DNA from: Opitutia bacterium
GTDB lineage: Bacteria > Verrucomicrobiota > Kiritimatiellia > CAIQIC01 > Lenti-01
NCBI GenBank assembly: GCA_009928955.1
Contig: SABN01000017.1
Span: 1-41,559, forward strand
Direction of reading: 5' to 3'
Length of the DNA stretch: 41,559 nt
Shown here: piece by piece, positions 21,748 to 25,788 of the stretch
Layout of the letters: each line of letters starts with the position of its first letter
How positions within the stretch are numbered: position 1 is the stretch's first letter
The notes under the pieces: generated by a model
What the model saw: the letters and a program-made list of their open reading frames with translations, nothing else
Told to the model about the DNA's origin: nothing
Databases searched by the model: none
Translations under genes and position numbers: made by a program

Positions 21748-22602
21748 GTGATTCCGCAAGCCGTCATCCTGCTCGGGGGCAAAGGCACGCGCCTCGCCGC
21801 GCGCTTCCCCGACCGGCCCAAGGCCCTCGTCCCCGTCGCCGGCCGCCCCTTCCTCGAATGGCAGCTCGACTGGCTGAAGAAGAACGGCGTTTCGAGCGTC
21901 CTGCTCGCCAGCGGCCACCAGGCCGACGTCCTCGCGGCCTATCTCGCCGCGCGCCCCCCCGACGGCCTCGACCTCGTCCTCTCCCGCGAGCCTGCGCCCT
22001 TGGGCACCGGCGGCGCCTTGAAATTCGTCGAGCCCCGCCTCGCCACTGACCCCGTCCTCGTCTTCAACGGCGACTCCCTCACGCCGAACCTCGATTTTTC
22101 CACGGTGTGGAAAATAGCCGAGTGCCGAGCCCAAGCCGACAGGCGCGGGGCGAACGCGAGGTCTATAGCGCCGCGCACCTGCGCGGCGAGCGAGGGAGCA
22201 CCCGCGACCGCAGCGGCAACAGTTTTCCACAGTGTGGAAAAAAACGGCGAAGTTTTCCACGGTGTGGAAAAAAGTTTTCCACAGTGTGGAAAACTTTTCG
22301 TGGCGCCCATCGCGGAAGCCGGCCGCTACGGCACGGTGGAGTCCGACGCCGACGGCTGCGTGACCGCGTTCCGCGAAAAGGCGGAGCGCCGCGCGGGCTT
22401 CGTCAACACGGGCGTCTACCTGCTCCCGCGCGCGCTCATCGCCGCGATCCCGGCCGGGAAACCCGTCTCCATCGAGACGGAGATCTTCCCCGCGCTGGCC
22501 GCGCGGCGGGAACTCGTCGCGCTCCCGGCCCCGCCGCCCCTGCTCGACATGGGCACGCCCGACGGCCTGGCCGCCATGGAAGCGTTCCTGGGCGCCGGTT
22601 GA
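21748..22602 (+). CDS. sugar-phosphate nucleotidyltransferase with an in-frame repeat insertion
   Basis: A 284-residue protein of the NTP_transferase family (HddC/RfbA/ManC-like), which joins a sugar-1-phosphate to an NTP. It begins VIPQAVILLGGKGTRLAARFPDRPKALVPVAGRPFLEWQ and continues with GTGGALKF and FNGDS, the metal/nucleotide site. Directly after FNGDSLTPNLD the normal helix of about 20 residues is replaced by about 66 residues encoded by four palindromic repeats and a GC-rich segment (22096-22293). The fold then resumes at APIAEAGRYGTVESDADG through NTGVYLLPRAL and LLDMGTPDGLAAME. The frame stays open, so the protein may be made, but its activity is doubtful. The start is the GTG at 21748; no ribosome-binding site. 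Confidence 0.82.
   Translation: MIPQAVILLGGKGTRLAARFPDRPKALVPVAGRPFLEWQLDWLKKNGVSSVLLASGHQADVLAAYLAARPPDGLDLVLSREPAPLGTGGALKFVEPRLATDPVLVFNGDSLTPNLDFSTVWKIAECRAQADRRGANARSIAPRTCAASEGAPATAAATVFHSVEKNGEVFHGVEKSFPQCGKLFVAPIAEAGRYGTVESDADGCVTAFREKAERRAGFVNTGVYLLPRALIAAIPAGKPVSIETEIFPALAARRELVALPAPPPLLDMGTPDGLAAMEAFLGAG
22096..22293. repeat. four 19-bp palindromic repeats plus a nested GC hairpin inside a gene
   Basis: TTTTCCAC-NNN-GTGGAAAA units lie at 22096-22114 (GGT), 22223-22241 (AGT), 22253-22271 (GGT) and 22275-22293 (AGT). Between the first and second, 22115-22222 is a separate GC-rich block containing the hairpin CGCCGCGC (22169-22176) / GCGCGGCG (22181-22188). Together the 198 bp are exactly 66 codons and contain no stop in the frame of the nucleotidyltransferase. 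Confidence 0.92.
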
Positions 22603-23166: not shown

Positions 23167-24294
23167 TCACGGCCCCCGCACGCACCGGAAGCCATTGACG
23201 CTTTCAACCGCGGCCGGCAACACCCAGGTGCGATCCGCGCACCGCACGTGGTTTGCACTGTTTACCAAACAGCCCCCGCGCATGACGCGCCAGGTCCCGT
23301 TGGTCGGCCCGCGCGGATCAATCGCATAGTTCGCTGAATAGGGGGCGTGCCAGTCCCAGCACCATTCCTGTACGTTGCCCGTCATGTCGTGAAGACCATA
23401 GCCATTGGCCGGGAAACTACCCGCCGGACTCGTATCGGTGAGGCGGTAATCCGGATGGTGGCCACGGGTGGGGCTGGTGTCGTAGGGATAGTTGGTCGAT
23501 GAATAATAAGTCGCCCACGCGTGCTGAATGGTGTCCCCGCCCCAAGGAAACAATTTCCGCTGGCGCCCGCCCCGCGCCGCCTTTTCCCATTCGGCCTCCG
23601 TCGGCAACCGATATCCATTGGCGCCCCAGTCCACGTAGTTGTTGTAGATGTTCAAATTCATGTTGCCGCGGTACACGCCGCTGGGTGTGCCGCCGGGCGG
23701 AATCGGATTCTCGTAATAGCAGGGGCGGAGTCCCTCCTTCTGGCTGCGGGCATTGCACCATTTGATGCATTCATACCAATTCAAATATTCGACGGGGTGG
23801 TTGGTGGCCGGGCTCGAGGCCGCCGCCGCGAATACATACCCGTTGGTGACCGCCCAATTCCACACCTCGAGATATTTCCCCCAGGTGACTTCCATTTCAT
23901 CCATCCAGAACCCGCTGATGAAATTGGTGTGCACGGGCGTCTCGATGCCGGCTTGCCCGAGTTCGACGTCGCCGCCGTCGATCCACACCATGCCTCTGGG
24001 CGGCGGGTTCGTGGCCATGACCACGCGGTAGAACATCGGCACCGCCACGCTGAAAGACCGGTTGGTCAGCGCGTCCACCGTGTTCAGCGGCTGGGCGGTG
24101 AACCGATGCCAGGGGCCGGTGGCCGCCGAGGCCCACTCCACGCGATAGATCGCATGGGTGTTGACTACGTTCGTCCACGTCACTTGCCCGTTGCCTTGGA
24201 CCGAGGTGATCACCGCGGTTTGCGCCAAGCTCGCCGTGGCCCAAATCCCGAGAAGCGCCGCCGCTCCCGCCCATCGCCGCGCGTTTTTGCTCAT
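23167..24294 (-). CDS. secreted SUMF1/FGE-domain protein A
   Basis: A 375-residue exported protein. The signal peptide (AAALLGIWATASLAQ) is followed by an 80-residue beta-rich N-terminal domain (ITSVQGNGQVTWTNVVNTHAIYRVEWASA). A formylglycine-generating-enzyme sulfatase-fold domain (about 100-375) follows, with MVWIDGGDVELGQ, FWMDEMEVTWGKY, GYRLPTEAEWEKAARGG, DMTGNVQEWCWD and NGFRCVRGP. The pair of active-site cysteines of true formylglycine-generating enzyme is absent: the region reads VMRGGCLVNSANHVRCADR. It is therefore unlikely to activate sulfatases and is more probably a carbohydrate- or ligand-binding relative. AAGGAG lies 8 nt before the ATG. It is a paralogue of the next minus-strand gene. 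Confidence 0.88.
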   Translation of the reverse strand: MSKNARRWAGAAALLGIWATASLAQTAVITSVQGNGQVTWTNVVNTHAIYRVEWASAATGPWHRFTAQPLNTVDALTNRSFSVAVPMFYRVVMATNPPPRGMVWIDGGDVELGQAGIETPVHTNFISGFWMDEMEVTWGKYLEVWNWAVTNGYVFAAAASSPATNHPVEYLNWYECIKWCNARSQKEGLRPCYYENPIPPGGTPSGVYRGNMNLNIYNNYVDWGANGYRLPTEAEWEKAARGGRQRKLFPWGGDTIQHAWATYYSSTNYPYDTSPTRGHHPDYRLTDTSPAGSFPANGYGLHDMTGNVQEWCWDWHAPYSANYAIDPRGPTNGTWRVMRGGCLVNSANHVRCADRTWVLPAAVESVNGFRCVRGP

Positions 24295-24645
24295 GAATTC
24301 TTCTCCTTGTTGCCAAATCCGATTCTGGATGAAAACCGTTCCCGCCGACTTCTCGCTTGGCTTTTTTCCCCCGACTTGTGCGGCGTCGCCCCGTCAGGGC
24401 GTACTCCGGGGGTGGACGGCACGTGCTCCGCATTCATCGGCGAATCCATGGCGAGGAGCCTGACCACCTGCAACTGGTTGGGCAAGGTCGAAAAGCGGCC
24501 AATGCAAATATTTTACGAGATTTTCACAATCCGGGTCCTCGCTGCCTTCCTGCCTGAACTTCTTCACCCACGTCACATGGGCGTGGGGATCGGGATCGGA
24601 GCCCCCCCCCGGGGGGGCCTTGCCCCGGCAATGATCGCCCGGCCG
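24295..24645. other. 351-nt intergenic region between the two SUMF1 genes
   Basis: No gene is supported here. The part next to 24294 must hold the promoter of SUMF1 gene A, but I see no convincing -35/-10 pair. The part next to 24646 holds the doublet repeat described separately. In between (about 24330-24560) is unremarkable sequence in which short open frames look accidental. Confidence 0.5.
24566..24635. repeat. REP-like doublet element, copy 3 (degenerate)
   Basis: Starts with a hairpin CCCACG (24568-24573) / CGTGGG (24582-24587), passes through GGGATCGGGATCGGAG, and ends in a GC-only second hairpin, 24601-24628, that includes C9G7. The layout matches the element at 25890-25964, and it ends about 10 nt after the stop of SUMF1 gene B. 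The second hairpin has drifted to homopolymers, so this copy is assigned by layout more than by identity. Confidence 0.6.
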
Positions 24646-25788
24646 TTACGGCCCCCGCACGCAACGGAAGCCATTGAGACGAAGAGGTTCGGCCGGGTCG
24701 ACGTTCTTCCGGGCGGCGCACCGCAGGTCGCTCGCCGTGGTCATCGCCGAACCGCCCCGCACCACGCGCGCCGTGCCGGTGTCGGTCCCGCGCGGATCCG
24801 TCGCATAGCCCGCCGCGTACGCCCCGGGCCGATCCCAGCACCATTCCGCCAGATTGCCCGCCATGTCGTACAGGCCATAGCCATTGGCCGGGAAACTCCC
24901 CACGGGGCTCAAGTAGGTTTCTTCGCCCGTTTCATAGTGGGGATGATAGCCCCGCGTCGGGCTGGTGTCGTAGGCCAAGGCATTGGTGCTAAAGTAGTTC
25001 GCCCGCGCGTGCTGGATCGTGTCGCCGCCCCAGGGGAACAACTTCCGCTGCCGCCCGCCCCGCGCCGCCTTTTCCCACTCCGCTTCGGTGGGCAAACGAT
25101 AGCCGGTTCCCGACCAGGTCACCCAGGAATTGCTCATGTTCAAGTTCCCGTAGCGGTAGATCCTGAAAACGGGATGCCCCTCGAAGAGAATGCGTTCGTG
25201 GTACACCGGCTGGAGTTTCTCCATTTCGCTGCGCGCGTTGCACCATTTGGCGGCGTCGTACCAACTGGCGAATGCGGGATGGTTGATGGTCAGACTCCAT
25301 CCGGAGGAGGAGGATCCGAATTCATAGCCGTTGTTCGTGGCCCAGGTGCGCACTTCGGCCCATTTTAGCGGCGTCACCTCCATCGCGTCCATCCAGAACC
25401 CGCTGATGAAATTGGTATGGACCGGGACGGCATCGCCCCCGACGCTGGCCTGCCCCAGTTCCACGTCCCCGCCGTCGATCCAGACCATCCCGGCCGGCGG
25501 CGGATTCGTGGCCATCACCACGCGGTAGAACATGGGCACCGCGACGGTGAACCCGGTGGCGGTGAGACCATCCACCGAGCCGACGTTGGCGAACGTCCGG
25601 TGCCAAGGGCCTTCGGCTTGCGCCGCCCATTCGACGCGATAGAGCGCGTTGGTGTTGACCGCGTTCGTCCAGGTCAGGCGGCCGTTCCCCGGGAACGACG
25701 CGATCGCCGCGCCCTGCCCCGGCGCCACCCCCGCCGACATCCCCAAGACCATCCCGACCACGGCCATCATCCGGCGCTGTCTCTTCAT
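24646..25788 (-). CDS. secreted SUMF1/FGE-domain protein B
   Basis: A 380-residue exported paralogue of the 23167-24294 protein. It has a signal peptide (MMAVVGMVLGMSAGVAPGQG), the same beta-rich N-domain (IASFPGNGRLTWTNAVNTNALYRVEWAA) and an FGE-fold domain with MVWIDGGDVELGQ, FWMDAMEVTPLKW, YRLPTEAEWEKAARGG, YDMAGNLAEWCWD and NGFRCVRGP. The catalytic-loop equivalent reads VVRGGSAMTTASDLRCAAR, again lacking the Cys pair. The ATG at 25788 is chosen because AAGGGA lies 7 nt upstream. The two copies share long blocks around FPWGGDTIQHA and SFPANGYGL, so they arose by tandem duplication. Role unknown; no sulfatase gene is in the window. Confidence 0.88.
   Translation of the reverse strand: MKRQRRMMAVVGMVLGMSAGVAPGQGAAIASFPGNGRLTWTNAVNTNALYRVEWAAQAEGPWHRTFANVGSVDGLTATGFTVAVPMFYRVVMATNPPPAGMVWIDGGDVELGQASVGGDAVPVHTNFISGFWMDAMEVTPLKWAEVRTWATNNGYEFGSSSSGWSLTINHPAFASWYDAAKWCNARSEMEKLQPVYHERILFEGHPVFRIYRYGNLNMSNSWVTWSGTGYRLPTEAEWEKAARGGRQRKLFPWGGDTIQHARANYFSTNALAYDTSPTRGYHPHYETGEETYLSPVGSFPANGYGLYDMAGNLAEWCWDRPGAYAAGYATDPRGTDTGTARVVRGGSAMTTASDLRCAARKNVDPAEPLRLNGFRCVRGP

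Follow-up and report, generated by a model that had tools for sequence, protein, structure and literature searches.

In the window (the whole 41,559-nucleotide stretch of DNA analysed here), a gene for a sugar nucleotidyltransferase carries an array of palindromes within its coding sequence (Table 1). The open frame runs from a GTG codon at 21748 to a stop at 22602, and the stretch 22096–22293, in frame throughout, consists of four 19-bp palindromes of the type TTTTCCAC-N3-GTGGAAAA and about 108 bp of other sequence. The palindromes bound the stretch exactly and are spaced at 127, 30, and 22 bp. An earlier note, made from the sequence alone, had reported a palindromic repeat of 198 bp (66 codons) in frame here, and both its coordinates and the open frame are exact. 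The 198-bp stretch is real, but it is one composite form of the repeat. It has 96 partial matches in the window genome, among them one full-length copy (91% identity, C260:19819-20016), which lies in frame within the gene for a YfhO-like membrane protein (a weak Pfam match). This sister copy is read in another reading frame, so what the two genes share is DNA and not a peptide. Filler related to the 108-bp segment is found in the window genome on three contigs only (C260, C46, and C249).

Table 1. Features of the nucleotidyltransferase gene and its palindrome array (positions in the window).
Feature	Position	Strand	Basis
Sugar-1-phosphate nucleotidyltransferase (HddC / GDP-mannose-pyrophosphorylase-like), array host, 284 aa	21748–22602	+	Pfam, NCBIfam, Foldseek
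In-frame palindrome array, 66 codons (residues 117–182)	22096–22293	+	
Palindrome 1, TTTTCCACGGTGTGGAAAA, read as FSTVWK; codon shared with the first palindrome of most orthologues	22096–22114		
Non-palindromic filler between palindromes 1 and 2, 108 bp	22115–22222	+	
Palindrome 2, TTTTCCACAGTGTGGAAAA	22223–22241		
Palindrome 3, TTTTCCACGGTGTGGAAAA, 30 bp after palindrome 2	22253–22271		
Palindrome 4, TTTTCCACAGTGTGGAAAA, 22 bp after palindrome 3	22275–22293		

The protein belongs to the nucleotidyltransferase superfamily: it matches Pfam NTP_transferase (PF00483; 1.4e-16, 61.2 bits against a cut-off of 21.2), and the residues of the GGxGTR...PK and GDS motifs are invariant in our alignment. 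The nearest NCBIfam profiles are mannose-1-phosphate guanylyltransferases and HddC (D-glycero-D-manno-heptose 1-phosphate guanylyltransferase), both with scores below the equivalog cut-offs. Against the HddC equivalog (NF049965, curated cut-off 300 bits), the window protein scores far too low at 97.6 bits, and an array-free orthologue (L040) likewise reaches only 91.9 bits. The best Foldseek match of the predicted model is also HddC (PDB 6jq8 and 5xhw; TM-score by target 0.87–0.89). HddC has the same nucleotidyltransferase signatures, but its segment is about 10 residues shorter than in an array-free orthologue and contains no repeat. Downstream of the enzyme, at window positions 23237–25551, two sets of stretches match each other (72–85% alike) at a distance of about 1.49 kb, which suggests a tandem gene duplication.

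Both flanks of the array are colinear with the family, as the note had said; besides the Pfam match, they are mostly 64–85% identical on both sides in relatives from the same genus and family. In these flanks, dN/dS is 0.14–0.42 (a simple NG86 count on distant pairs), the signature residues are kept, and just 1 of 80 otherwise invariant sites is changed. Because the flanks are under purifying selection, the enzyme is not a fossil, which was the other reading offered with the first description. We take the array-bearing enzyme to be functional and infer its activity from this conservation. The segment from NGDS to YGT has 90 residues in the window gene versus mostly 37–47 in array-free relatives, and it is shorter than in the window gene in the array-free orthologues of G011, G013, G024, G026, G028, G030, G037, and others. 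Array-free orthologues thus lack a segment of similar length, which would have counted against the note. The net gain is roughly 45–50 residues, in frame, and thus the repeat does make new protein sequence without breaking the gene. In the AlphaFold2 model of the window protein, pLDDT is mostly 80–93 in the core and under 50 in the insert, which predicts a disordered loop on a core that keeps its fold. The array strand folds far better than shuffled sequences (z -8.3); any palindrome array must fold, so this does not separate a role in RNA from a role in DNA. A search of six array loci against Rfam identified no known RNA family.

That the palindromes are repeat DNA beyond chance is clear from their number: TTCCANNNNNTGGAA occurs 310 times in the window genome (3.42 Mb) versus 2 times for a reversed control. 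Genomes of the same family have 28–467 copies and those of the order 19–1808, and in roughly half of the remaining class members the count is 0–11, which is near background. (Most of the genomes compared are drafts from metagenomes.) By its named matches, the group belongs with Kiritimatiellae and further Verrucomicrobiota MAGs, and the palindrome strings had no match in the literature that we searched. The palindromes have the form TTCCA-N5-TGGAA, and there are two types. “CAC-type” palindromes (TTCCACNNNNTGGAA; CAC..GTG) are found in most of the window's family, and “CAA-type” palindromes (TTCCAANNNTTGGAA; CAA..TTG) in one of its genera, g6, as well as in the order and class. A common form of the array in the window genome has five palindromes with spacings of 22-31-30-22, for a total of 124 bp. 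Over all loci, the spacings are 22, 30, 31, or 32 bp, with few exceptions, and CAA-type runs in G041 alternate between 31 and 32 (mean 31.5). Relative to multiples of 10.5 bp, the resultant is 0.82 for CAC-type and 0.89 for CAA-type palindromes, with offsets under 0.4 bp. The spacings fit two and three turns of B-DNA, and a period of 10 or 11 bp is nearly as good. Arrays lie at many draft contig ends (for example, L110:1-80 at the start of G012:C11, and in G041 and G054); they probably break assemblies and hence are undercounted. RAYT as the driver of the family found no support among these incomplete drafts: hits to RAYT models do not correlate with the number of palindromes (G010, G041, and G054 have none, yet contain 148, 122, and 17 palindromes), and none of five RAYT genes has a palindrome within 1.5 kb.

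Most arrays lie between genes. In a sample of G001 (796 kb, 92% coding), 23 of 26 arrays with at least two palindromes are intergenic. Two are inside genes (the nucleotidyltransferase and an Opp/Dpp-type permease), and one is in a doubtful N-terminal extension of a TsaB-like gene (by our reading of the start). Two single intragenic palindromes in G001 resemble native coding matches: they encode FHSLE and FQWVE, in what we take, from recognised motifs, to be an RsmH-like protein and a Cas4-Cas1-like protein, respectively. In the window genome, we classified 30 loci with a home-made gene finder, which was retrained after spurious antisense frames gave false genic arrays. Four are clear coding cases, all in frame: the nucleotidyltransferase, the tRNA-modifying enzyme TilS, the permease (whose array site is shared between G000 and G001), and the YfhO-like protein. 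Elsewhere (L022:1482-3044, a DNA-methylase-like gene, and L005/L027), arrays coincide with or adjoin the predicted starts of genes whose actual start codon is ambiguous.

The first description was of a single invasion of one gene. The array is present as described, but the site is recurrent: it is occupied in many genera, with differing numbers and types of palindromes. Orthologues from 11 genomes of the family (G000–G005, G009, G010, G012, G015, and G016) have a CAC-type array immediately behind GDSLxPxL, although in G001 and G005 the first palindrome begins a few bases later than in the others. Among scattered lineages of the order and class, CAA-type arrays of one to five palindromes occupy the same site in G017, G018, G019, G022, G025, G042, G055, and the Spartobacteria-labelled L069. 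There are about a dozen layouts at this site, with spacings that are mostly not multiples of three, and all intact copies keep the frame. Were the frame free to vary, twelve layouts would all be in frame with a chance of about (1/3)^12, which is a rough figure because the layouts are not fully independent. In L048:1060-1857 and L067 (G042), one palindrome at this site is followed by a different, low-complexity repeat, GGACGGAGGACGG, which is also in frame; the site therefore accepts other repeat DNA.

The type of palindrome in coding arrays tracks the genome: CAC-rich genomes have CAC-type arrays and CAA-rich genomes have CAA-type arrays. TilS gives a second example. In the window genome, its N-terminal and C-terminal domains flank a five-palindrome array, and arrays at this conserved site are present in most of the family and absent in the order members examined. 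G011 and G014 contain 459 and 411 CAA-type palindromes and almost none of the CAC type, and their TilS arrays are CAA-type with 22/30/22 spacing; sister genera have the same spacing with CAC-type palindromes. Because type matches genome in two genes, coding copies appear to be renewed from the resident family, presumably by recombination or fresh insertion. Repeated fresh insertion and conversion in place agree equally well with the match. The TilS of the window genome (L006:851-2398) also contains another tandem repeat, unrelated to the palindromes (KGVGVQENHSLR-like units), which lies in frame between the array and the C-terminal domain.

A motif of the native protein may be the reason why arrays recur at this codon. 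In the array-free L066, L072, and L075, GDS is followed by a native helix of the type DFxxLxxxH, and one possible spelling of the peptide F-(Q/H)-x-(L/V)-E, TTC CAN NNN NTG GAA, is the palindrome. Most CAA-type lineages read their first palindrome in just this F-(Q/H)-x-(L/V)-E frame, where it coincides with the native motif DF(Q)xL(E)K. The codons used at the first palindrome are minority ones (TTG is 3–20% of leucine codons and CAA is 11–39% of glutamine codons), so the match is not a plain coincidence of protein sequence. In the AlphaFold2 model of L069, the helix at 114–144 continues through array-coded residues. Thus, the array does follow GDS, as the earlier note had it, but it is not a clean swap for the helix that belongs there: in CAA-type lineages, alignment and model indicate that the helix is kept and extended. 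The G021 peptide DFRALAQAHAVFSRPWK is similar to that of G017, AFQALEKQHAAFSKAWK, although the palindromes of G021 have decayed, which suggests that the peptide became part of the protein. The window's own family reads its first palindrome 2 nt out of the native-motif register, as FSTVWK, a frame for which the native motif offers no explanation.

The account that we favor, and consider probable, is that REP-like arrays live mainly between genes, and that the enzyme site has gained, expanded, contracted, and renewed them while they were kept in frame, with a working enzyme as the result. It starts from what is observed: the repeats, their phasing, the shared codon, the frame, the type match, and purifying selection. 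High-copy arrays, with units two or three helix turns apart, would reside chiefly between genes in this group of Verrucomicrobiota, and a few permissive coding sites would retain them, the post-GDS segment of the nucleotidyltransferase being the most widely shared. Arrays could persist at coding sites because the palindrome is stop-free in every frame and because an array can come to a length divisible by three. Each genome's own repeats would supply the gains, expansions, contractions, and renewals; selection on the enzyme would hold the array in frame; and the product would be a working enzyme with either a disordered loop or a lengthened helix.

A second account, which we consider somewhat unlikely, is that these are ordinary selfish elements of the REP/RPE type that inserted at random and were tolerated, and that a single old insertion, passed down and frequently lost, explains the shared position. 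Intragenic REPs are already known, and the gene tree hints at some inheritance: presence and absence of the array require at least eight changes on it, below the mean of 11.1 from 200 shuffles, though inside their range (7–14). However, array-free lineages lie between array carriers on that tree (which has many weak forks), and the palindrome type follows the genome. Both inheritance and repeated gain and loss may contribute to the pattern.

We also think it unlikely that the array is retained for a role in DNA, in which a dimeric protein would bind the phased palindromes on a single face of the helix (in a nucleoid or regulatory function) and the enzyme would tolerate the consequences. Such a role would suit the clustering of spacings at 22 and 30–32 bp, near multiples of 10.5 bp, as well as the 31/32 alternation in G041, the use of the less common codons TTG and CAA in the first palindrome of several genomes, and the retention of the array by the same gene across a class. 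But 10- or 11-bp periods fit almost equally, the binding protein is only putative, and there is no general need for the array: many class members lack the repeats (2–11 copies), and some array-rich genomes (G011, G013, G024, G026, and G041) have an array-free gene. In a bolder version, which we regard as quite doubtful, the arrays would be helically phased sites for a putative dimeric protein, seeded at the palindrome-like native F-Q/H-x-L/V-E helix codons, so that the gene body became a lasting, genome-synchronised docking site and the protein was reshaped to fit. Finally, a decaying pseudogene or an assembly error is highly improbable, even though the assembly of the window genome is a draft (345 contigs, 7.9% contamination) and arrays break contigs in other drafts (G012), because the enzyme is under purifying selection, the sole apparent frameshift (in G012) proved to be an NN assembly gap and was rejected, the 91% sister copy differs at many bases (so it is not a collapse), and arrays occupy this site in independent assemblies from different studies, in one of them on a 316-kb contig.

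Rickettsia and a few genomes rich in REPs supply the best-known cases of in-frame palindromic insertion, and these have usually been described for single genomes. Under the account that we favor, genomic repeat DNA has become extra protein sequence repeatedly (in the nucleotidyltransferase, TilS, and two membrane proteins), and the genes were not destroyed. Here, a single enzyme site can be traced through a bacterial class, where it holds anything from no palindrome to one, two, or as many as about seven, of two types and in frame throughout. These are natural replicates of the passage from repeat DNA to protein, for the length that is tolerated, for entry into a helix, and for persistence of a peptide after its palindromes decay. 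The helical phasing offers a direct way to search for a putative protein behind the repeats.

Rickettsia palindromic elements (RPEs; Ogata et al. 2000, reviewed in PMC2229807) occur in intergenic DNA as well as in frame within conserved genes, and according to that review an RPE-bearing guanylate kinase is translated and active. The Kiritimatiellia-type palindromes are likewise both intergenic and coding in frame. They differ in description: RPEs are units of 105–146 bp with terminal inverted repeats in Rickettsia (PMC2229807), while here there are 2–7 short palindromes in a variable, phased layout in Verrucomicrobiota, at one codon across many genera and with the palindrome type following the genome. 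The GTAG/CGTC REPs (Di Nocera et al. 2013, PMC3733652) are also small palindromes that are mostly intergenic, with some inside ORFs, where clusters code for up to 82 residues; Opitutus terrae, a relative in the Verrucomicrobia, has the most intragenic GTAG repeats, and recB of two Xanthomonas species has a REP insertion at about the same site (PMC3733652). Reading 22096–22293 by eye, we saw no GTAG or CGTC tags or their complements, and in contrast to those REPs the palindromes here are near-perfect, 15–19 bp long, and spaced two to three helical turns apart, with no RAYT link found. The event is of the same kind as RPEs and intragenic REPs; what is new is that the arrays are phased, that one site is reused class-wide, and that palindrome type matches the genome.
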